Shown here: positions 3,335 through 11,725 of the stretch, in pieces
Layout: each line of letters begins with the position of its first letter
Position numbering within the stretch: the stretch's first letter is position 1
Assembly (NCBI GenBank): GCA_022447625.1
Contig: JAKVAX010000031.1
Span: 1 to 32,285 of the forward strand
Reading direction: 5' to 3'
Source of the DNA: Flavobacteriales bacterium
Lineage (GTDB): Bacteria > Bacteroidota > Bacteroidia > Flavobacteriales_D > Sanyastnellaceae
Length of the DNA stretch: 32,285 nt
Notes under the pieces: model-generated
The model's database searches: none
What the model was told of the DNA's origin: nothing
Seen by the model: the letters and a program-made list of their open reading frames with translations, nothing else
Position numbers and translations under genes: made by a program

Positions 3335-3349
3335 GTTTCGATCTTCGAT

Positions 3350-3521
3350 CGGTAGACCGTGGACCGTGGACTGGGGAATAATGAATAATAAATAATGAAT
3401 CGTGAATTTGTAGACCGTGGACTGTGGACCGTAGACCGTGGGAATAATGAATTGATAGACGGAACTAACCATGCTACCGCCGCAGGCGGACGAATCATGC
3501 TAATCCGGCGTCCGTTTTTTT
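3350..3521 (+). repeat. Composite intergenic repeat R1 (heptamer arrays plus CCGCC hairpin unit)
   Basis: A chain of 7-bp units keeps one phase from about 3351 to 3440. It runs CGTGGAC, CGTGGAC, TGGGGAA, TAATGAA, TAATAAA, TAATGAA and TCGTGAA, and then returns to ACCGTGG-type units. A hairpin unit (CCGCC-GCA-GGCGG at 3477-3489, flanked by CATGCTA motifs) follows, and then a CCGGCGTCCG segment running into seven T. It begins 15 bp after the stop of the upstream gene. The final GC-rich inverted segment plus T-run could act as a terminator. Confidence 0.75.
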
Positions 3522-3611
3522 CTATTTCGTATCAGGTTAAACTTTTGACATACTCTTTCGAAACCAACTAACACCGTAATTGATACCTTTAGAAAAACCC
3601 GTCATCAACTC

Positions 3612-4529
3612 ATGAGAGTACTTCTGTTAGCTTCACTCACTATGCTCTTTTTCGGTTGTGTATTCAGTAATCCTCTGTCAAGAAGAGATCCTGATTTAAC
3701 CAAAGTGAATCCTCCGGGAACGCTTGAAGTTTCGCCGGGATTTTACGTAGACGACTGCGAAATCACCAATTTCTATTGGTTGGAATATTTGGTCTACCAG
3801 AAACGAGTGCATGGAAAAGAAAGTGAGCTGTATCGGAGTTGTCTGCCTGATACGAGTGTTTGGCAAGTTCATGATGATTTCAAATCATTTGGTTATCGCT
3901 ACTTGCGACATCCAGCGTATCGCGACTTTCCAGTTGTAGGTATTTCTATCGAACAAGCTAAACAATATGCCAAATGGAGGTCAGATCGTGTCATGGAAGT
4001 CTTGTTGATTAGAAATAAGAAAATTGAGCTTCACGTGGATGCTCTTCGTGATTCTATGTTCACCATAGAACGATACTTCAGTGGTAATTATAGGGATTAT
4101 GAACCTGAGCAGTCTATCACTCACTACCTTGAATACAGAATTCCGTCAAAGGAAGAGTTCGAACGGGTTATACCTGTTGCTGATTCATTGCACCAATCCA
4201 ACTATAAACCAATACAAGATGAGCCTGAAAGCCAACTGTTCTATAATTGCTTCTGTGGCATTTCAGTGAAAGATTCTGTGATCAAGGATTTTCCAATTAT
4301 CAAAGGCACACCATCAGGCAGGAAGCCTCTAATTGCAAATTTAGATTGCAACGTAAGAGAGATGACCAATCAAGAAGGTTCGTTTTTTGGCTCAAGCTGC
4401 ATCGATTCATGCGGAACCCCATCTTATCAATTCAGACAAGACAGCAATATGGTCAATTGCTACACCGGATTCCGCTGTGTAGCGGAGTGGAAACCTATTG
4501 AGGAGCTTGAATTAGCTAATCCGAAATAA
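3612..4529 (+). CDS. SUMF1/FGE-domain lipoprotein (GldJ/GldK-like fold)
   Basis: A 305-aa protein with a lipoprotein signal peptide; the lipobox LFFGC places the lipidated Cys at about residue 16. The rest matches the formylglycine-generating-enzyme/SUMF1 fold as used by Bacteroidota gliding and type IX secretion lipoproteins. Typical landmarks are the early 'DDCEITNFYWLEYL' segment, 'HPAYRDFPVVGISIEQAKQY' followed by KWRSDR, 'YRIPSKEEFE' and the closing 'GFRCVAEWKP'. It is shorter than GldJ or GldK (usually over 450 aa) and is not next to gld genes. The likely role is structural or protein-binding at the outer membrane or periplasm, not catalysis. It stands alone between two copies of the composite repeat. 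No strong promoter box was identified. Confidence 0.8.
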   Translation: MRVLLLASLTMLFFGCVFSNPLSRRDPDLTKVNPPGTLEVSPGFYVDDCEITNFYWLEYLVYQKRVHGKESELYRSCLPDTSVWQVHDDFKSFGYRYLRHPAYRDFPVVGISIEQAKQYAKWRSDRVMEVLLIRNKKIELHVDALRDSMFTIERYFSGNYRDYEPEQSITHYLEYRIPSKEEFERVIPVADSLHQSNYKPIQDEPESQLFYNCFCGISVKDSVIKDFPIIKGTPSGRKPLIANLDCNVREMTNQEGSFFGSSCIDSCGTPSYQFRQDSNMVNCYTGFRCVAEWKPIEELELANPK

Positions 4530-4547
4530 GGAGAGGGTGCTCTGAGA

Positions 4548-4730
4548 AAATAGTAAATAATGAATAATGAATCGTGATTGGTGAATTGGTTGACAATGGG
4601 AAGTGGACAGGACTAACCACACTAACCATGCTAACCGACTTGGCGGACTAATCATGCTGATTCCGGCATCCGGCATCCGTTTCTTTCAGTTAAGCCAAGA
4701 GTCGGTTAAGCACCTTTCGCCATTTAGCCC
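4548..4730 (+). repeat. Composite intergenic repeat R2 (7-mer and 8-mer arrays)
   Basis: From 4548 the 7-bp units AAATAGT, AAATAAT, GAATAAT, GAATCGT, GATTGGT and GAATTGG follow in phase. A GTGGACA word comes next, then a degraded hairpin unit (CCGACTTGGCGG near 4635-4646), then CCGGCAT twice plus CCGTTTC (4663-4683). An 8-bp-period array (TAAGCCAA, GAGTCGGT, TAAGCACC, TTTCGCCA, TTTAGCCC) occupies 4691-4730. The array begins 18 bp after the SUMF1 stop. Confidence 0.7.
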
Positions 4731-4817
4731 TTATGCAGAAAAGATTGATTTCAATACCCCTACGGAACATTCCCCCAAAATTCCTGTTCTTGTTCAATAC
4801 ACTTAATCTATTTCACC

Positions 4818-5258
4818 ATGATGAACAGAAGAGCCATTTCTACTTGGCAAGGATCAGGACTTGAAGGTAAAGGGCAATTGACCGTGACAAGCGGTGTGTT
4901 AAACGAGACTCCGTACTCATTCAAGATGCGTTTCGAAGACGAGGAAGGACGTTCTGGAACGAACCCAGAAGAGCTACTTGCAGCGTCGCACGCCGGATGC
5001 TTCAATATGGCATTGAGCTTTCAATTGGTTGGTGCTGGTTACGAAGCAGAGATGTTGGAAACGAAGTGTACCGTTACCTTGGAAAATGTGGGTGGGAATG
5101 ACTTTGGAGTAACCAAGATTGTTCTTGATCTCCAGGCGAAGGTTCCAGGTCTTGATAACGACAAGTTCATGGAACTAGCCAACAACGCAAAGAACGGTTG
5201 TCCGATCTCGAAGGCGTTGAGCTCAGTTGATATTCAAATGAATGCGGTGCTGAAATAA
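4818..5258 (+). CDS. OsmC/Ohr-family peroxiredoxin
   Basis: A 146-aa cytoplasmic protein of the OsmC family, thiol-dependent hydroperoxide reductases that remove organic and inorganic peroxides. The family's paired catalytic cysteines are present: C61 in [11 protein letters not shown] and C128 in NGCPISKAL. The conserved '[15 protein letters not shown]' run covers residues 47-61. Length and motif order fit the OsmC subfamily (osmotically induced type) better than Ohr, but I do not separate them firmly. Two ATGs occur in tandem at 4818 and 4821, and the first is used here. The stop directly abuts the stop of the convergent GNAT pseudogene with no spacer. Confidence 0.92.
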
Positions 5259-5762
5259 TTAGCTCCGAGGGTTTTTCAAAATGGAGATTAACCCACAGTG
5301 CTCATCGGCTTCAAGTGGCTGCCAGTCTCTGAAGCCTAGCTTTTCAAGCACACGAATCGATTTCACATTACTTTCCATAACGCGTCCCGCCAAGTGCGGG
5401 ATGCCTTTTTTCCAGGCCCACTCAATACACGCCTTCCCAGCTTCAGTAGCATAACCATTCCCACGATACTCCCGGAGCAAACGGAACCCTAAGTCAACGT
5501 ATCCTTCGTCGGGATGATCTTTCAATCCGCACCATCCCATCACCGCACCGTCCTCTTTCCGGACGACAGTCCATCGACCAAATCACCATTTATCATAAGC
5601 GTCATACGCCTCAATAAACGCACGTGTTGCCGCCACACTTTCAAAGGCACCATCGCCAGTGAAGCGCTGAACTTCAGGGTCATTGTTCATTTTGAAAAAA
5701 TGAGGAGCGTCCGAACTTAGGAATTCTCTGAGTTCTAGTCTTTGGGTTTGGAAAGCAAGCAT
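5259..5762 (-). pseudogene. GNAT acetyltransferase (RimJ/RimL-like) interrupted by one in-frame TGA
   Basis: Reading the minus strand from an ATG at 5762 gives a full-length 167-codon GNAT N-acetyltransferase frame, with a TGA at 5585-5583 replacing codon 60. Both sides match the family. Upstream is the N-terminal 'QTQRLELREF' strand and 'KMNNDPEVQRFTGD'; downstream are 'FGRWTVV' and the acetyl-CoA loop 'REYRGNGYATEAG', then 'NVKSIRVLEKLGF'. Codon 60 lies in a K-W-x-F-G-R-W context where relatives usually carry Gly, so a single GGA-to-TGA change explains it. No frameshift is needed. A downstream ATG (5543) could start a 94-aa C-terminal fragment that keeps the acetyl-CoA site but lacks the first strands. 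Recent inactivation, a sequencing error or readthrough all remain possible. Confidence 0.85.
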
Positions 5763-5779
5763 GATTGGGGGGACATTCT

Positions 5780-5831
5780 TAGTCCGCCTCAGGCGGAAGC
5801 ATGGTTAGTTCGCCTATGGCGGTTAGTTTTT
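5780..5831 (-). repeat. Composite repeat R3, two hairpin units in reverse orientation
   Basis: Two hairpin units in tandem: CCGCC-TCA-GGCGG (5784-5796) and CGCC-TAT-GGCGG (about 5811-5822). They are separated by the conserved GCATGGTTAGT linker and end in a short T-run. The orientation is opposite to that of R4, so together they flank the four-helix-bundle gene as inverted copies. This is the only copy lying in a divergent gap (upstream of the GNAT pseudogene and of the S23 gene). Confidence 0.65.
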
Positions 5832-5940
5832 GGGTTCATTTTGACGATCTGGACTGTGCAATCACTCGAGTATAAAGTTTTGGTTGACGACGGGAAAATA
5901 AATTTCATAAAGTCTTACCGCCGAGGCATCTTAGATAAAA

Positions 5941-6306
5941 ATGGCAAGAACATTTGAATCGTTGGTCGTTTGGCAAAAGGCACGTTCGTTAAACAAGCGT
6001 ATTGAGTTAGAGCTTGATAAAATTCCAGCCTCTAAAACTGACTACGACTTAAACCGTCAAATCAAACGCGCCAGCAATAGTGTGATGTCAAATATCGCGG
6101 AGGGATCATCCAGAGGCACCAAAGCAGACTATGTTAGGTTCATTGATATGGCATCAGGCTCCAGTTCAGAAATTAGAAGTCATCTTTACGTTTATCTCGA
6201 TTACGAGATCCTTGAACCTTCAGTAGTGAAAGAGCTCCAAGCCAAGAGCACCGAAATTAACAAGATGCTCACCGGCCTCAAGAAAACACTCAAGAATGCT
6301 AAATGA
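5941..6306 (+). CDS. Four helix bundle protein (S23 / 23S rRNA intervening-sequence protein family)
   Basis: A 121-aa, all-helical protein of the family first noted as ORFs inside 23S rRNA intervening sequences, related in fold to the Avd accessory protein of diversity-generating retroelements. Family landmarks are 'FESLVVWQKARSL' at the N-terminus and 'QIKRASNSVMSNIAEGSSRG' (about 40-59), then 'DYVRFIDMASGSSSEIRSHL'. Its biochemical role is unknown; members form basic pentameric barrels thought to bind nucleic acid. The ATG at 5941 follows an A-rich stretch. There is no ribosomal RNA here. It is instead bracketed by inverted copies of the composite repeat (R3 at 5780-5831 and R4 at 6313-6421), which hints that the gene may have moved together with these repeats. 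Confidence 0.9.
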   Translation: MARTFESLVVWQKARSLNKRIELELDKIPASKTDYDLNRQIKRASNSVMSNIAEGSSRGTKADYVRFIDMASGSSSEIRSHLYVYLDYEILEPSVVKELQAKSTEINKMLTGLKKTLKNAK

Positions 6307-6312
6307 AGAATT

Positions 6313-6421
6313 GAAAAACAATGGACGGTGGACAGCTATTACTAATCATGCTATCCGCCTCAGGCGAACTAATCATGCTACTGCCGAAGGCAGACTAATC
6401 ATGCTAACCGCCGTAGGCGGC
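6313..6421 (+). repeat. Composite repeat R4 with three hairpin units, one showing a paired change
   Basis: GTGGACA-type words near 6325-6333 are followed by three tandem units joined by ACTAATCATGCTA. They are (C)CGCC-TCA-GGCG (about 6355-6367), CTGCC-GAA-GGCAG (6381-6393) and CCGCC-GTA-GGCGG (6408-6420). In the middle unit both arms changed together, preserving the stem. The array fills the gap between two convergent genes. Confidence 0.75.
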
Positions 6422-6425
6422 CTAT

Positions 6426-7865
6426 TCAACTACTAGTCTTCACCGCGTTCGCATCTTCCGAGTACCCAAACAACCGCTTATCCTTAATAATCGTATCAAC
6501 GTAAGTCGGTACCATGTCTTCCCAGCCCTCTGAACCTTCGCGGATCATTTCAAGGCATTCGCGTGAGTAGATATCTAGGATGTCTTTATCGTAGTCTTCG
6601 ATATCAATGATACGCTTGTTGAAGATCAAGTAATCATAAAGCGGTTTCAATCGTGGGTAGATAGGAGCATTCTCAGTGATGAGTAGTTCACCAGAGTTGT
6701 TATCGCGCCATGGGTAGAGGTACATCTTAAGATCTCGAGAGAATAAGATACCGAAAGCCTCTAGAATACCTCCATTCAGGTTTCGGTAGTATTTCTCATT
6801 GAAAACATCCAAGAGGTTGTTGGTTCCCATGATCAATCCCATACGCTTCTTCGTGTATCGAGAGAAGTATTCTACCAGCTTGTAGTACTTCTGGTAGTTT
6901 GAGATCAATACTGTTTGCCCTAGTGAGCATAAAATATCTGCTCGATCAAGGAAGTCTTTTTCGTCGATGTCACCATCGGCTTTCAGGTTGTTGAGGGTGA
7001 TCTCGAATAGAACCTGGATGTTATCTGGATCAACACGATTCTCGGCCTCGAACATCTTATAACCTTTCATGATCATATCGATGTTCACCTTCGTCACAGG
7101 ACGGAAGCTTCCGCGAATCGCGAGGATATTCTTCTTGTAAAGTAGATCAGCAGCCTGAAGGTTTCGTCCGTCAGGTGAGAAGATGACCGCATCGGTCATG
7201 CCGTTCTTCACCAGCTGCAAACTCATCAAGCGGTTGTCGACGTCTTCGAAATCTGGACCTGTCATTTGGATCATGTCGATCTCAATCTGGTCGCGATCGA
7301 GGTTATCGTATAGACTCTTCAGGAGGTCTTTTGGCTTCTTGTAGAAGAAGAAACAACCGTAAATGAGGTTCACTCCCAGCACACCACCAGAGGCCTGCTG
7401 CAAGAGAGCATCATTCTCATGGAATCGAACGTGAAGAATCACAGAGTTCGCTGCCTTCCCAGGTTCTGTCTGGAATTTTACTCCAAACCAACCGTGACCT
7501 TGAATGGTCTTATGGAAGTTAATGGTAGCAACGGTGTTTGCAAAAGCAAAAAATCGCTTCGTTGGGTGCTTGTCGCGTGTTAGACGCTCCTCGATCAAAT
7601 TGTACTCGTAATCGAGCATTTTCGCCAATCGAGGCTTACATACATAGCGACCTTTGTTCTCTTGACCATAGATCGCATCACTGAAATCCTTGTCGTAAGC
7701 CGAGATCGTCTTCGCGATCGTTCCTGATGCCCCTCCAGCCTGAAAGAAATGACGCACAACTTCTTGTCCTGCTCCAATTTCAGCAAAGGTCCCGTAAAGG
7801 TCTTGATTCAAGTTTATCCGAAGCGCTTTTTGCTTCGCTGATAATACCACGCGATCTATGTCCAC
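6426..7865 (-). CDS. Conserved protein of unknown function (often mislabelled TonB receptor or NaMN adenylyltransferase)
   Basis: A 479-aa soluble protein with no signal peptide or membrane segment. The N-terminal signature (KQKALRINLNQDLYGTFAEI, then GAGQEVVRHFFQAGGASGTIA) is one I recall as strongly conserved across Bacteroidota and some other phyla. In databases such proteins carry unreliable names such as 'TonB-dependent receptor' or 'nicotinate-nucleotide adenylyltransferase'; nothing here supports either, since there is no barrel, no plug and no HxGH motif. The start is GTG at 7865, supported by a TAACTTTG promoter box at 7895-7888 about 22 bp upstream, which leaves a leader of roughly 16 nt. 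It is a single-gene unit. Its strong conservation suggests a housekeeping role that I cannot name. Confidence 0.8.
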   Translation of the reverse strand: MDIDRVVLSAKQKALRINLNQDLYGTFAEIGAGQEVVRHFFQAGGASGTIAKTISAYDKDFSDAIYGQENKGRYVCKPRLAKMLDYEYNLIEERLTRDKHPTKRFFAFANTVATINFHKTIQGHGWFGVKFQTEPGKAANSVILHVRFHENDALLQQASGGVLGVNLIYGCFFFYKKPKDLLKSLYDNLDRDQIEIDMIQMTGPDFEDVDNRLMSLQLVKNGMTDAVIFSPDGRNLQAADLLYKKNILAIRGSFRPVTKVNIDMIMKGYKMFEAENRVDPDNIQVLFEITLNNLKADGDIDEKDFLDRADILCSLGQTVLISNYQKYYKLVEYFSRYTKKRMGLIMGTNNLLDVFNEKYYRNLNGGILEAFGILFSRDLKMYLYPWRDNNSGELLITENAPIYPRLKPLYDYLIFNKRIIDIEDYDKDILDIYSRECLEMIREGSEGWEDMVPTYVDTIIKDKRLFGYSEDANAVKTSS

Positions 7866-7887
7866 GACTAATTTCTCTGTGTTTACT

Positions 7888-7895
7888 CAAAGTTA
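7888..7895 (-). promoter_or_regulatory. Bacteroidota -7 box TAACTTTG
   Basis: A perfect match to TAnnTTTG, 22 bp upstream of the GTG start at 7865. A TTTG lies about 24 bp further upstream, slightly beyond the usual -33 spacing. Confidence 0.55.
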
Positions 7896-7953
7896 GGAGT
7901 AAAAAATTGAATAGCCTGTCAAATGTGGTTTTTCTATCCGGTTCGTGGGATGA

Positions 7954-8001
7954 AGGGCGAAAGTGCGAAATAGCTAAAAGGGCTTAACCGTCTTTTAGCG
8001 T
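7954..8001 (+). repeat. 8-bp-period tandem array
   Basis: Degenerate octamers follow in phase: AGGGCGAA, AGTGCGAA, ATAGCTAA, AAGGGCTT, AACCGTCT, TTTAGCGT. The words match the octamers at 9862-9893 and, in reverse, those at 4691-4730. Confidence 0.6.
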
Positions 8002-8005
8002 ACTT

Positions 8006-8171
8006 GAAAAAAACGGAAGCTGGAAGCCGGACGCCGGGATAAGGATTAGTCCGCCTGTGGCGGTAGCATGGTTAGTCCGCCTGTGGCGGTAGCATGGTTA
8101 GTCCGCCTGTGGCGGTAGCATGGTTAGTTAGGTTCTGTCCACTGTCCACTGTCCACTGTCCACTATCCACC
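8006..8171 (-). repeat. Composite repeat R5 with a 26-bp unit in three tandem copies
   Basis: Heptamers CGGAAGC, TGGAAGC, CGGACGC and CGGGATA (8014-8041) lead into three near-identical 26-bp units at 8045-8070, 8071-8096 and 8097-8122. Each unit contains CCGCC-TGT-GGCGG. A heptamer array follows at 8134-8168 (TCTGTCC, ACTGTCC three times, ACTATCC). On the minus strand it has the same order as R1, ending in a run of T, and it begins about 6 bp after the stop of the outer-membrane-protein gene. Confidence 0.8.
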
Positions 8172-8174
8172 AAT

Positions 8175-9056
8175 CTAATTCCAAGTCTTCGGACTACCCG
8201 CCGGGCCCTCATAACTCCGGTATGCATTATCTCCAAAGATCCAGCCGAAAACCACGTTGACTTGACTGAAGCCGAATTGTTGACTGGCGCGATCACTTTC
8301 GCGGATGGTGGTGCGAATGTCAGGCATATTCATCCAACCGAGTTTGCCTTCAAATTGGACAATGAAGTGTCCTTTGATAAGCGCACGGAGCCCACCTGTA
8401 GCACCGAAACCGTAGCCGGCCCAGTGGAAGTCGTCGTAACGTTCGATGTTGAGAAGAGTGCAGTTGGTCTTTGGGTAGAGACCACCTACGCTCAAACCAC
8501 CGAAGGCACTGAAATCAAGGAACTGATTCATGTATGAAGGTGAACTGAATCGTCCTTCAATATTGATATAGTTCAATCCGTCAGTATGCTCGAACTCTAC
8601 GAATTTCGGTCCAATGTAAACTTCTTGGTTATCGTAGTTGCCATCGTAATTGCTTCCAGTACGGATATAGCCGTCGATGTTCACGATCTGTGTTCGCGCC
8701 ATGACGTACTTCATATGATCGATTCCGGCTGAAAGCTCGAAGCGGTCGGTTAGGTAGTAACCCACTCGGAAGTTGTACTGCGGGGTTGTTGCCCACTTCG
8801 GATTGAAGTAGATACGCGGGAGGAAAGTCGTTTGATTGTCACTGGCGTCTACATCGTACATCGTGAAGTCATGATCATCGCCGAAAAAGCGAATGTCTGA
8901 TTCCGTATAAGCACTGCGGTTCCACCCCCAATAGAAGTATAAACGTCCTTTATTGACCTTATTCTTCTCCCATCTGAACTGCTCTTGCGCCTGAAGTGTT
9001 GAAGTCAGTGTGAGCAATACTAAGAGTCCGATTATATTCAGCGAAGTCTTTCCCAT
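8175..9056 (-). CDS. Outer-membrane beta-barrel protein, unknown role
   Basis: A 293-aa protein with a Sec signal peptide (hydrophobic core about residues 8-20, cleavage near LQAQ). The body alternates aromatic and hydrophobic residues in strand-like runs: 'GRLYFYWGWNRSAYTE', 'YNFRVGYYLTDRFELSAGID', 'AFGGLSVGGLYPK' and 'FGFSQVNVVFGWIFGDN'. This is what an 8- to 12-strand barrel looks like. The 'YYLTDRFELSAGIDHMKYV' segment recalls OmpW/OmpA-type small barrels, but the family is not certain. The gene is transcribed divergently from the MBL-fold gene across only 42 bp. A TACCTTTG box lies just 8 bp before the ATG, predicting an almost leaderless mRNA. A GTGGACA repeat array starts immediately after the stop. 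Confidence 0.8.
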   Translation of the reverse strand: MGKTSLNIIGLLVLLTLTSTLQAQEQFRWEKNKVNKGRLYFYWGWNRSAYTESDIRFFGDDHDFTMYDVDASDNQTTFLPRIYFNPKWATTPQYNFRVGYYLTDRFELSAGIDHMKYVMARTQIVNIDGYIRTGSNYDGNYDNQEVYIGPKFVEFEHTDGLNYINIEGRFSSPSYMNQFLDFSAFGGLSVGGLYPKTNCTLLNIERYDDFHWAGYGFGATGGLRALIKGHFIVQFEGKLGWMNMPDIRTTIRESDRASQQFGFSQVNVVFGWIFGDNAYRSYEGPAGSPKTWN

Positions 9057-9061
9057 TCAGC

Positions 9062-9094
9062 CTGCAAAGGTAAATCTTTGCGCTTACCTTTACA
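9062..9094. promoter_or_regulatory. Divergent promoter region with nested inverted repeats; TACCTTTG box for the barrel gene
   Basis: The 42-bp gap between divergent starts holds AAAGGTAA (9066-9073) and TTACCTTT (9084-9091), perfect 8-bp inverted copies with 10 bp between. Nested inside is GCAAAG/CTTTGC (9064-9069 and 9076-9081). On the minus strand TACCTTTG (9072-9065) is a perfect -7 box for the outer-membrane gene. On the plus strand TACCTTTA is a one-mismatch box for the MBL gene. The symmetry gives each direction its own box and may also bind a dimeric regulator. Confidence 0.5.
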
Positions 9095-9098
9095 CTCG

Positions 9099-9860
9099 AT
9101 GAAGATACGAATGCTCGGTACGGGAACATCGCAAGGAGTGCCAGTCATTGCCTGCGACTGTGAAGTGTGTACATCCACTGATCCGCGCGATAAACGTTTG
9201 CGTTCCTCTATCCAGATTTCTGAGGGCGATACCAATATTGTAATTGATACCGGACCTGATTTCCGCCAGCAAATGCTTGCCAGTGGAATAAAGAACTTAG
9301 ATGCGGTAGTCTTCACGCACGAACACAAAGATCACATCGCTGGTCTTGACGATATCCGTGCTTTCAATTTCCGCCAGAAGAAAGACATGGATGTATACGC
9401 CACTGAACGAGTTCAAGAGGCATTGAAACGCGAATTCCACTATGTATTCGCACCAATCCGTTATCCAGGTATCCCTCAAATTGCGCTGAAGACCATTGAT
9501 TTGACGCCTTTTGAAATCAATGGTATTGAGTTCATCCCCATCGAAGTGATGCATCACAAGCTCCCGGTCATGGCTTTCCGTATCGGTGATTTCGCGTATG
9601 TCACTGATGCTAATTCTATCGCTAGCGCGGAATTCAACAAGTTGCGCGGTGTCAAAACACTCGTCATCAACGCCCTCCGCAAGGAAACCCATATCTCTCA
9701 CTTCAACCTCGAAGAGGCTCTAGAAATCATCTCTATCATCAAGCCAGAGCGTGCTTACTTGACGCACATTAGTCATCTATTAGGTAAGCACGAAGACATC
9801 TCGAAGGAATTACCAGAAGGGGTAGAGTTGGCGTATGATGGGCTTGAGTTTACCGTTTAA
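9099..9860 (+). CDS. MBL-fold metallohydrolase (PhnP-like)
   Basis: A 253-aa cytoplasmic metallo-beta-lactamase-fold hydrolase. The zinc-binding HxHxDH motif is HEHKDH at residues 74-79, inside 'FTHEHKDHIAGLDDIR'. Further metal ligands are likely in 'VMHHKLP', 'YVTDANS' and 'THISH'. The N-terminal 'GTGTSQGVPVIACDCEVC' with paired Cys resembles the PhnP subgroup, whose known members are cyclic phosphodiesterases. No phn genes lie nearby, so the substrate is open. The ATG at 9099 is preferred over an upstream TTG (9078) because the family begins right at MKIRMLGTGTS and the TTG would overlap the promoter repeats. An 8-bp-period repeat array starts one base after the stop. Confidence 0.88.
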   Translation: MKIRMLGTGTSQGVPVIACDCEVCTSTDPRDKRLRSSIQISEGDTNIVIDTGPDFRQQMLASGIKNLDAVVFTHEHKDHIAGLDDIRAFNFRQKKDMDVYATERVQEALKREFHYVFAPIRYPGIPQIALKTIDLTPFEINGIEFIPIEVMHHKLPVMAFRIGDFAYVTDANSIASAEFNKLRGVKTLVINALRKETHISHFNLEEALEIISIIKPERAYLTHISHLLGKHEDISKELPEGVELAYDGLEFTV

Positions 9861-9861
9861 G

Positions 9862-10207
9862 GGCTAACTGGCTAAAAGGCGAAATGGCTAACGGGGTTTG
9901 AGCATATGGCTGAAGGCTGAAGGCTTAAAGCCTAAGTCGGCTAAAGGGCTAAATGTGTTTGGGGTGTTCGGAGTAAAACTCATTTAAAACGGATGCCGGG
10001 CTTAGCATGATTCGTCCGCCTGCGGCGGTAGCATGGTCAGTCCGCCATAGGCGGATAGCTAATCAGGCTGGTTCGGTCCACGGTCCACAGTCCACAGTCT
10101 ACCATTTCAGAGGCTGCACTCGGTAAACCGATATCTCGTATTCTCCACGCACCACGCACCACGCACCACGCACCACGCACCCTAGCTTACGCCATAAGCC
10201 TTACGCC
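9862..10207. repeat. Composite repeat R6 between convergent genes, running into the HAD coding end
   Basis: This fills the 326-bp gap. In order it holds octamers GGCTAACT, GGCTAAAA, GGCGAAAT and GGCTAACG (9862-9893); heptamers ATGGCTG, AAGGCTG, AAGGCTT and AAAGCCT (9906-9933); hairpin units CCGCC-TGC-GGCGG (about 10017-10029) and CCGCC-ATA-GGCGG (about 10042-10054); heptamers CGGTCCA, CGGTCCA, CAGTCCA and CAGTCTA (10074-10101); and five perfect CCACGCA copies (10145-10179). The same 7-bp phase then continues through CCCTAGC, TTACGCC, ATAAGCC and TTACGCC to 10207. The last part overlaps the final codons and stop of the minus-strand HAD gene. No other gene is visible in the gap. Confidence 0.8.
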
Positions 10208-10849
10208 TGCATATGAAGAAATAACCCGTTCCGCCCCCAACGCCTTCAGCTTCCCATTCAAGTGCACGTCTACACCGATGAATTCAATTTCGAGGAGTTG
10301 GCATGTTCTATAGTCCCATGAACCGTCGCCGAAGTAGATGATGCGTTCAGGTTCTTCGCCGGTGCGTTCTTTGAGTTGATCGATAACATCTTGAGTTATT
10401 TCTGCACGTGTTTTATGGTAATCACTATTCGAGAAACACACACCTTGGATATCGATCCCGCCTGTATTCAGTTTCACCATAGCTGATAGCTCCCAAGATC
10501 CTGTAGCGACACCTAGTCCGATGTTTGGATCATTCTTCAATGAGTTGAAGTATTCTTTCGCTCCCGGTACTTCCTTGAATTTCTCAGGATGATTCTCTTG
10601 TTCAGACCTCAGTAATCGAATGAAATTGTCATGCATCCGCTGGAACTCTTCATCCGAAGGGAGCCGACCAAATTCACCTTGGAAGATTTCTTCTGTAATC
10701 CCCCAATCGGTCACATTTTGAAGTCCTTCCCAACTCTGATTCCAAGAGCCAATCTCAAAGGTTTCCTGAAAGGCACGCACAAAACAATCATCATCCACTG
10801 CAGTGGAATCTGTAAGGGTGCCGTCGATGTCGAAGATGATGAAGTGCAT
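10187..10849 (-). CDS. HAD-superfamily hydrolase (phosphoglycolate-phosphatase-like)
   Basis: A 220-aa haloacid-dehalogenase-type phosphatase. Motif I is FDIDGTLTDS, with nucleophile D7 and acid D9; motif II is ATGSW; the motif III Lys probably lies in the 'YHKTRAEIT' segment; motif IV is FGDGSWDYRTC (about 173-183). A helical cap of roughly 70 residues sits between motifs I and II, as in the PGPase/beta-phosphoglucomutase group. The substrate cannot be told from sequence. Oddly, the last few codons (GVRLMA and the TAA) are written in heptamer repeat sequence (GGCGTAA, GGCTTAT, GGCGTAA on the minus strand). The original C-terminus may therefore have been replaced or extended by the repeat. 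The ATG at 10849 is the natural start. Confidence 0.88.
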   Translation of the reverse strand: MHFIIFDIDGTLTDSTAVDDDCFVRAFQETFEIGSWNQSWEGLQNVTDWGITEEIFQGEFGRLPSDEEFQRMHDNFIRLLRSEQENHPEKFKEVPGAKEYFNSLKNDPNIGLGVATGSWELSAMVKLNTGGIDIQGVCFSNSDYHKTRAEITQDVIDQLKERTGEEPERIIYFGDGSWDYRTCQLLEIEFIGVDVHLNGKLKALGAERVISSYAGVRLMA

Positions 10850-10907
10850 GGGTTCTGGTTTGTAGTTCGTAGAGAATGCTAGATATCGGTTTCAGGCGGA
10901 AATTCTA

Positions 10908-11028
10908 CGAAATCGTAGACCGTGGTCTGTAGACCGGATTATTAGTTACGTATTCATTATTTATCCATCACTATTTCAAAAGTTCACGGTTGATTGATAT
11001 ACGCCTTAAGCCCTAAGCCATACGCCTA
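10908..11028 (-). repeat. Composite repeat R7 (heptamer arrays only)
   Basis: Heptamers CGTAGAC, CGTGGTC, TGTAGAC and CGGATTA from 10913 run into degraded AATAATG-type words (on the minus strand AAATAAT, GAATACG). A second array at 11001-11028 reads ACGCCTT, AAGCCCT, AAGCCAT, ACGCCTA and touches the stop codon of the minus-strand membrane-protein gene. No CCGCC hairpin unit is present in this copy. Confidence 0.6.
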
Positions 11029-11490
11029 TTAAAAGATTCCTCTAGCCGTCCACTCCTTCTGAATGCGAATCATTTTAAGGTAGTAGGGGATGAGGAGAAT
11101 GAATTCAAAGCGTATTCCGAATTGAACGAAATCAGTGACGAAGGGGAGGATCACCATCGATAAGAAGCAGATGATGATACCGATAATCGCATCAATTTGT
11201 GCGTATTTTACCGCCCAATCTTTTTCGAACCATAAGCCGTAAGCGACCACTCCTTTGAATGCAAAGAGCGCGCTGATACTAAGCGCAACCATGGAATATG
11301 GATCGTTAGATTCCAGTCCGTACAGTGCGTACCGACCTTGTCCAGAAATGATCCCGATGAGGTAGGCTAAAGGTGTAACGACACCCACAACAAAGCAAAG
11401 CCAAATAAAGATCTTAATCCACAAAGGGAGCAGATTTCGTCTACGTGGCAATCCATTCTCACGCGGGTTGTCAAGGATTATTTCTTCCAT
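11029..11490 (-). CDS. Small four-helix membrane protein, unknown function
   Basis: A 153-aa protein with a polar, Arg-rich N-terminus and four predicted membrane helices (about residues 24-48, 66-85, 94-115 and 122-140). The tail 'KMIRIQKEWTARGIF' is basic. I do not recognise the family. The shape suits a small integral membrane protein with both ends in the cytoplasm. It is transcribed alone. Upstream, TATCTTCG is one mismatch from the -7 consensus. Its stop codon is directly followed by a heptamer repeat array. Confidence 0.7.
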   Translation of the reverse strand: MEEIILDNPRENGLPRRRNLLPLWIKIFIWLCFVVGVVTPLAYLIGIISGQGRYALYGLESNDPYSMVALSISALFAFKGVVAYGLWFEKDWAVKYAQIDAIIGIIICFLSMVILPFVTDFVQFGIRFEFILLIPYYLKMIRIQKEWTARGIF

Positions 11491-11535
11491 AGAGGGCAGT
11501 TTTCTGGGAACTCGAAGATACGGGAGGAAGAGGAA

Positions 11536-11725
11536 TTAATGATTCGTGAATAATAAATACTGAATTCAAAACTTCTGGATTCCTGCGTCTATCCTCTGGA
11601 TTGGGCTCCGTTTCAATTCCTATTGTTGGCCTCAAAAAGACTGACCATGCTATCCGCCAGAGGCGGACTAATCATGCCATCCAGCCGAAGGCGAACGAAT
11701 CATGTTGATTATGCCGGGATAGGGA
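11536..11725 (+). repeat. Composite repeat R8
   Basis: Heptamers AATTAAT, GATTCGT, GAATAAT, AAATACT and GAATTCA (11536-11570) are followed by the hairpin units CCGCC-AGA-GGCGG (about 11655-11667) and a degraded AGCC-GAA-GGCG (about 11682-11692), with the usual AATCATG linkers. A CCGGGATAGGGATTATT segment follows. The right end reaches the TAA of the minus-strand hemF gene. Confidence 0.65.

Follow-up and report, generated by a model that had tools for sequence, protein, structure and literature searches.

The window analysed here is a stretch of 32,285 nucleotides (contig JAKVAX010000031.1, C25 in our numbering) from the genome of a Flavobacteriales bacterium (G000; 3.9 Mb in 76 contigs), and it concerns us for the tandem arrays of 7-bp, and sometimes 8-bp, units that lie in the gaps between its genes. 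Genes were represented by open reading frames (ORFs) of at least 100 codons; ten of the 14 window gaps of at least 60 bp end by position 11,725, and the DNA from 12 to 32 kb is almost entirely ORF. With an array defined as at least 11 matches in 14 positions, and 100 shuffles under a dinucleotide model as the null, we identified 10 period-7 arrays in window gaps against a mean of 0.12 in the shuffles. The heptamer arrays are thus beyond chance, as an earlier sequence-only reading of this DNA had proposed, and shuffled gaps hold no comparable period-7 arrays. Two of the octamer places named in that reading, 7954-8001 and 9862-9893, passed the same threshold (two period-8 arrays, 0.18 expected; detected extents in Table 1), and the third, 4691-4730, passed a looser one only, as 4715-4736 (1.0 expected there). 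GTGGACN at 3351, 8134 and 10074, AATAATG at 3378 and 4548, GGCTNAA at 9906 and 11001, CCGGCAT or GGAAGCC at 4663 and 8014 and CCACGCA at 10145 were all recovered, at the coordinates given in Table 1. AATAATG at 11536 was detected at the loose threshold alone, GTGGACN at 10913 was found at neither threshold, and the GGCTNAA site at 10187 lies in the 3' end of an ORF, outside the gap scan, where about three GCC(T/A)TAA-type units can be seen by eye. Tandem Repeats Finder reports most of the threshold-detected array sites of the window, and Rfam gave no match in the window.

The repeats had appeared to be confined to about 3.3-11.7 kb, an impression that arises because the window's gaps mostly end by 11,725; three consecutive GTGGACN units have 106 exact matches in G000 (60 forward and 46 reverse). 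There are 140 forward and 85 reverse matches in G002, a close species of the same genus, and none in G001, also of this genus, or in 37 other relatives searched. These two relatives were compared with G000, using samples of 432 kb of G000, 700 kb of G002 (300 kb in one array scan) and 320 kb of G001. Each species is represented by one assembly and the comparisons are between species; shuffle counts vary between analyses since seeds, sets and thresholds differ. Stretches of the G000 contigs C1, C4, C7, C8, C45 and C56 and four stretches of G002 were picked for known GTGGACN arrays, and 400 kb of G002 taken by coordinate alone (L166-L185) hold 121 of the 245 arrays of that species, in 39 of 169 gaps. 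The 39 kb of gaps in the G000 sample contain 36 strict lag-7 runs, against 0.0 after shuffling, and the 394 kb of ORFs contain 6, against 1. A looser array definition returned 75 period-7 arrays in the G000 gaps (2 in the shuffle; 0-4 in single shuffles), with periods 6 and 9 near background, and 124 in 300 kb of G002 (3 shuffled), while G001 yielded 23 arrays of period 7 (0 shuffled) and 21 of period 8 (1 shuffled). Arrays are present in 45 of 202 gaps in G000 and in 92 of 337 in G002, where the 245 arrays found in 700 kb take up 8,862 of 58,540 gap bases (15%). The shuffle comparisons rule out a chance origin; the arrays are real and genome-wide.

Pooling of G000, G002 and G001 gave 343 period-7 arrays against 10 in one shuffle, together with 35 of period 8 (1 shuffled), 32 of period 6 (31), 23 of period 5 (46), 3 of period 9 (0), one of period 11 and none of period 10. 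The period-7 units comprise 100 distinct sequences, which fall into 34 greedy clusters (10 clusters in the shuffle) and, at looser linkage, all chain into one. Fixed period with changing words, the first half of what the sequence-only reading had put forward, was therefore borne out. The preference for 7 is genuine and holds across some two dozen more unit clusters than chance accounts for; as the period is constant while the words vary, some factor biases the arrays towards 7 and, less frequently, towards 8.

Words differ from lineage to lineage; period 7 recurs. The main families in G000 and G002 are GTGGACN, CCGGCRT, GCCTANN, GGCNTAW, AATAATG (or TGAATNN), CCACGNA and GCGGAWY. The congener G001 has other words and many octamers; its octamer arrays in L052, L053 and L161, e.g. 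GTCCATAA and ATGGACTT, resemble the heptamer GTGGACT plus one base. G013, from another genus of the same family, carries long TAGTCAC/TAGTCGT arrays, also of period 7, in stretch L198; these reach about 38 units, and both variable bases of the TAGTCAC/TAGTCGT mix change together. We also scanned 20 stretches, of 3-20 kb, from other relatives: no array was present in 16, one each in L195 and L203, two in L207 and seven in L198. Strict period-7 runs showed no excess in 79 other Flavobacteriales loci (1 vs 0 shuffled), and at a looser threshold five Flavobacterium loci have 3-7 arrays each (0-3 in shuffles). We also considered GTGGACN as a special word. Four consecutive units occur in 4 of 395 genomes of the phylum, G000 included, but the pattern read backwards occurs in 3 (G150, G173 and G327), and the word is therefore not privileged. 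In the genomes G358 and G263 the arrays come after stop codons.

Such constancy of period could mean that a length-controlled enzyme or polymerase writes 7-nt (or 8-nt) steps whatever the sequence, the mosaic being its direct product. The spread of 343 arrays over 34 clusters, with a second peak at 8 and near-background counts at 6 and 9, agrees with this explanation, as do the persistence of 7 and 8 in congeners that differ in their words and the period-7 arrays of the other genus; register, however, is lost across unit types. The same phase had been thought to run through changes of unit, in continuous 7-bp steps, and this did not hold at the sites open to a test. GTAGACC starts at 3352 and 3410 are 58 bp apart (8 x 7 + 2), the register moving by 2 between the two GTRGACN blocks of 3350-3441, and where GTGGAC adjoins GCCTA in like orientation, the offset may be 1, 5 or 6. 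Some pairings do have one offset: 0 for GTGGAC-/TGAAT- in 3 of 3 cases (two of them orthologous), 0 for TGAAT+/TGAAT- in 6 of 6 (one block copied) and 5 for GCCTA-/GCCTA+ in 3 of 3. The ACGC words in phase at 10145-10207 amount to a one-in-seven event, and a lone junction between unrelated words cannot define phase. Several of the words are, moreover, accounted for by the dispersal of a composite repeat described below. The reverse transcriptase domain RVT_1 is absent from G000, with one hit each in G001 and G002, which also led us to reject telomerase-like reverse transcription. Taken together, we regard length-controlled writing as unlikely.

The unit sequences had been read as unrelated to one another. 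Instead, the three octamer places, GTGGACN and CCGGCAT/GGAAGCC, and AATAATG in part, belong as modules to a single dispersed composite some 250 bp long, which consists of GTGGACN heptamers, a CAGAACCTAACTAACC-like link, hairpin units (P), CCGGCRT heptamers, a spacer and CGCCATTT-type octamers. Five copies were aligned, namely window positions 4546-4745, 7945-8176 (reverse) and 9858-10110 (reverse) and two G002 stretches, and the tandem modules differ in copy number among them. The copy at 4546 has AATAATG mostly in place of GTGGACN, and its octamer place at 4691-4730 holds one exact CGCCATTT, of which the related G002 composite (L142:4990-5100) has nine. The GGCTNAA and CCACGCA arrays lie outside or beside the composite. 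Composites occur at many places and have a preferred order of modules: in 77 gaps with at least two modules, the same-strand order was P-C in 23 of 30 cases, A-E in 12 of 18, A-P in 11 of 17 and C-O in 9 of 14 (P being the hairpin). After masking of the arrays, 37 of the 89 G002 gaps with arrays (7 of the 156 without) and 14 of the 43 in G000 (8 of the 116 without) still had sequence in common with gaps of other stretches; the L183-L184 composites were excluded from this count. In L183-L184 (G002), a composite with inverted TGAAT heptamers repeats at roughly 2-kb steps. Tandem gene duplication was rejected as the cause of this recurrence, the intervening DNA between the copies not being repeated.

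The P units are hairpins of 26-28 bp. In the G000 and G002 samples 24 of 34 P inserts have a stem of at least 5 bp; with each distinct insert counted once the figure is 19 of 29, compared with 1% after shuffling. The stems show paired changes, e.g. CTGCC/GGCAG and CCGCT/AGCGG. P units co-occur with arrays, with an odds ratio of 10.8 (p 3e-5) in G000 and 26 (p 2e-9) in G002. Transposition of the hairpin units by a tyrosine transposase associated with repetitive extragenic palindromes (REP; RAYT for the enzyme), with the heptamers dragged along, would fit the hairpin nature of P, its paired changes and the presence of one Y1_Tnp gene in G000 (Table 1). That gene is, however, flanked on both sides by hairpins of the ATGCCGTAGGCAT, CCCCTCTGGGG and ATCCCTCCGGGAT type, there are no P units in the 3.3 kb around it, and the exact flanking hairpins have no copies in the G000 sample. 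No RAYT flanked by P hairpins was found in G000, and G002 was not searched for Y1_Tnp. We therefore hold this explanation to be highly improbable.

Table 1 Repeat features and neighbouring ORFs of the window, and the Y1 transposase match found elsewhere in G000
Feature	Position	Strand	Details
GTRGACN heptamers, then AATAATG/AATCGTG heptamers, then GTRGACN	3350..3441	+	arrays 3350-3407 and 3411-3441
Hairpin unit P CATGCTACCGCCGCAGGCGGACGAATCATG, then CCGGCGTCCG and a T-run	3466..3520	+	
ORF	3612-4529		FGE-sulfatase domain (Pfam PF03781); no match in 700 kb of G002
Composite copy	4545..4736	+	AATAATG heptamers (4545-4579), P unit, CCGGCAT heptamers (4657-4679), spacer, octamer remnant (4715-4736)
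ORF	5259-5543		GNAT acetyltransferase matching only the second half of PF13302 (positions 66-138); may be a remnant or frameshifted
ORF	5941-6306		23S rRNA intervening-sequence protein family (PF05635), directly before the tandem P hairpins
Three P hairpin units in tandem	6341..6419	+	period about 27
ORF	6426-7865		479 aa; at least 593 related stretches among the matches listed; no Pfam match at E 0.001
Composite copy	7947..8172	-	CTGTCCA (GTGGACN) heptamers 8135-8172, P units (tandem 26-bp units 8046-8128, 3.2 copies), CCGGCRT heptamers 8015-8037, octamers 7953-7978
Composite copy	9862..10105	-	GTGGACN heptamers 10074-10105, P units 10003-10066, one CCGGCAT unit, GGCTNAA heptamers 9902-9935, octamers 9862-9891
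CCACGCA heptamers, then GCC(T/A)TAA-type units	10140..10207	+	CCACGCA 10140-10181, 5.3 perfect copies; later units run into the 3' end of ORF 10187-10849
GCCNTAA-type heptamers	11001..11025	+	
Degenerate AATAATG heptamers and tandem P units	11547..11704	+	heptamers 11547-11567 (loose threshold only); P units 11639-11704, period about 28
Only Y1 transposase match of G000	C22:32596-32940 (L051)		

Arrays are most frequent in convergent gaps. They are present in 16 of 32 convergent gaps in G000 and 23 of 48 in G002, in 19 of 106 and 44 of 199 tandem gaps, and in 7 of 45 and 19 of 69 divergent gaps, respectively. Within tandem gaps they lean to the stop of the upstream gene (mean relative position 0.39, n = 146). 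Changes between adjacent units concentrate on few positions, in GTGGACN 137 of 177 at positions 3 and 7. These observations could be taken to suggest that the arrays are protein-binding or RNA-level regulatory sites whose 7-bp spacing is kept by selection, as suggested for the TAACTGA repeats of Beggiatoaceae. The few variable positions per unit (GTGGAC plus any base), the enrichment in convergent gaps, the lean in tandem gaps and the orientation of GTGGACN there (17 sense, 9 antisense) would be in agreement with such a role, but CCGGCRT is not clearly oriented (10 sense, 7 antisense), close species lose or swap arrays, and the concentration of alleles hardly exceeds a founder-allele null. That only a few positions in each unit vary freely looks striking, but the rule is weak against that null, in which founder alleles, few in number, are placed at random over seven positions: for GTGGACN p is 0.007 when alleles are cut off at 5% and 0.053 with a 10% cut-off, and for the seven other families it ranges from 0.05 to 1.0 (5% cut-off). 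Given these p values, we do not claim a constraint on unit positions. Regulatory function is not needed to explain the arrays, and we consider it a very unlikely cause of them.

Comparison of G000 with G002 shows how quickly the arrays change. In 53 orthologous gaps, arrays were present in neither species in 35, in both in 14 and in one in 4. The length test drops 4 of the 53 pairs, in which the G002 gap is at least 1.5 kb (three of them array gaps). Array gaps are hypervariable: their length differs by 3-216 bp in 15 of 15 pairs (p 1.4e-7 vs other gaps), while 27 of the 34 other gaps are of equal length in both species, four differ by a single base pair, and the remaining three differ by 26, 458 and 512. 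Fixed array length, which would have spoken for ordinary conserved DNA, is thus not what is seen, on a comparison of species, not strains. Unit types also substitute for one another at the same site. At L048:9255-9584 (contig C56), flanked by octamers and CCGCAAT units, G000 has a GTGGACC array where G002 has CCGGCGT, and at C4:20211-20439 TTAGGCG-type units stand where G002 carries CCGGCGT.

A larger rearrangement was found within the window itself. The 3.4-kb segment 4588-7981 is inverted in G002 relative to G000, and the inversion ends lie in gaps 4530-4817 and 7866-8174, both of which hold composite copies, inverted with respect to each other; gap 3335-3611 adjoins the inversion junction in G002. 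G002 also carries about 2.7 kb of extra DNA between the two parts of 4588-7981. The single gene of the inverted segment that aligns in G001 has the G000 orientation, which indicates that the G002 arrangement is probably the derived one. The inversion may have arisen by recombination between the composite copies.

We think it fairly likely that these gaps form a hypervariable mosaic that is spread by recombination and resized by slippage. Many arrays would be modules of dispersed composite intergenic repeats, similar to bacterial interspersed mosaic elements (BIMEs), with parts that behave as variable-number tandem repeats, and the other heptamer families TGAATNN, GCCTANN, CCACGNA and GCGGAWY would accompany these composites. 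Recombination or gene conversion between dispersed copies may spread and shuffle the modules, perhaps aided by mobilisation of the hairpins, and local copy number may change by slipped-strand mispairing or by unequal recombination of one or a few units. New arrays would start at 7 (sometimes 8) bp if slips near that length are favoured, a preference already put forward in the literature on heptanucleotide repeats of bacteria. The shared words are explained by dispersal, and the variability most likely by recombination and slippage. The likeness of neighbouring units also bears on the mechanism: GTGGACN unit identity falls from 0.45 at lag 1 to 0.18 at lag 5 (random pairs 0.13), which points to local unit duplication. 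Mismatch repair shows no sign of having been lost, as the MutS_V domain is present in all 6 genomes searched. A further proposal, that sequence-indifferent duplication with a 7-nt ruler (8 as the alternative) keeps seeding arrays, while words turn over and recombination rebuilds about a quarter of the gaps, is speculative and in our view rather doubtful.

Several observations weigh against this model of recombination and slippage. In G000 the gaps with arrays are the longer ones (median 222 vs 144 bp), which helps such gaps to vary. Where length differences around arrays could be anchored, only 3 of 9 segments gave a multiple of 7; simple slippage unit by unit is therefore not the chief change to be seen. 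A clear decay of likeness with distance is seen in GTGGACN only: CCACGAA shows a mild one (0.56 to 0.41, against 0.22 for random pairs), and there is none in CCGGCRT (0.37 at lag 1, against 0.34 for random pairs) or in AATAATG, where 0.03 at lag 1 and 0.44 at lag 4 point to block copying. Slippage alone leaves the near-background counts of periods 6 and 9 unexplained, and arrays are no rarer in divergent than in tandem gaps. No mobiliser was identified, the sole Y1 transposase of G000 having different flanking hairpins. In G001, arrays occur in 17 of 109 gaps and P units in 1 of 109, so arrays arise without P and composites are not needed for them; as P is nearly absent from G001, the composite belongs to G000 and G002.

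The arrays are of a known kind, being heptamers similar to the short tandemly repeated repetitive (STRR) sequences and partly organised as BIME-like composites. The likeness to cyanobacterial STRR, suggested by the sequence-only reading, is a fair one, as both have 7-bp units beyond chance, lie between genes and show several unit sequences per organism; among filamentous cyanobacteria, Calothrix has three STRR unit sequences (PMC4692102), and STRR function is described as unknown (PMC2670836). The arrays described here differ in their Bacteroidota host, in having more unit families, in being embedded with hairpins and octamers and in that their species turnover was measured. The closest relatives among the matches listed are Flavobacteriales, not cyanobacteria, so that with regard to the host they are not STRR in the strict sense. 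The intergenic TAACTGA direct repeats of Beggiatoaceae, cyanobacteria and five Bacteroidetes (MacGregor 2015, PMC4679880), for which a role in gene rearrangement was suggested, are likewise heptamer arrays. In Gramella and Aequorivita they stand beside other heptamer repeats, the gaps of close relatives being shorter and without obvious repeats, and in Elizabethkingia they lie within larger heptamer assemblages (PMC4679880). Two consecutive TAACTGA units had no match in the G000, G002 and G001 samples; the words here are others, module order is shown, and the arrays lean to the 3' side of genes, in contrast to TAACTGA repeats, most of which lie shortly before start codons.

Other repeats share single traits with those described here. 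The GGGAATC/GGGGAYT repeats of Xanthomonas and Nostoc, G-rich and studied as G-quadruplex formers (Rehm 2015, PMC4692102), are also intergenic heptamers with conserved and variable positions that vary in length between close relatives, but they are of a single G-rich word type. REP and BIME elements are extragenic mosaics of many short hairpins, whereas the main modules here are heptamer and octamer arrays; REP units reportedly bear a GTAG or CGTC tag beside their stem (PMC3733652). Heptamer-derived satellite families and (GATAGRA)n occur in Chloroflexus (PMC6749651). Trinucleotide and hexanucleotide repeats are reported as enriched in most prokaryotic phyla (PMC12699852), so that 7 is not a universal peak. 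Our literature search recognised no paper describing such composites, the genus name itself not having been searched. Heptanucleotides were found to be the most abundant long simple repeats of bacteria by Mrazek et al. in 2007, who hypothesised slippage set by polymerase contact (via PMC4679880 and PMC4692102), and in the literature covered this is the only hypothesis offered for their predominance. The predominance of 7 is shared by the present arrays, which differ in having many unit clusters inside one genus and 8 as the second period.

One genus here holds hundreds of arrays with many words, nearly all of period 7 with some of period 8. The two close species allow the changes to be read gap by gap, so that models of slippage, recombination and a length ruler become testable. 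In these bacteria intergenic DNA is seen to be rebuilt by the exchange of modules, and one inversion has its ends in the repeats.

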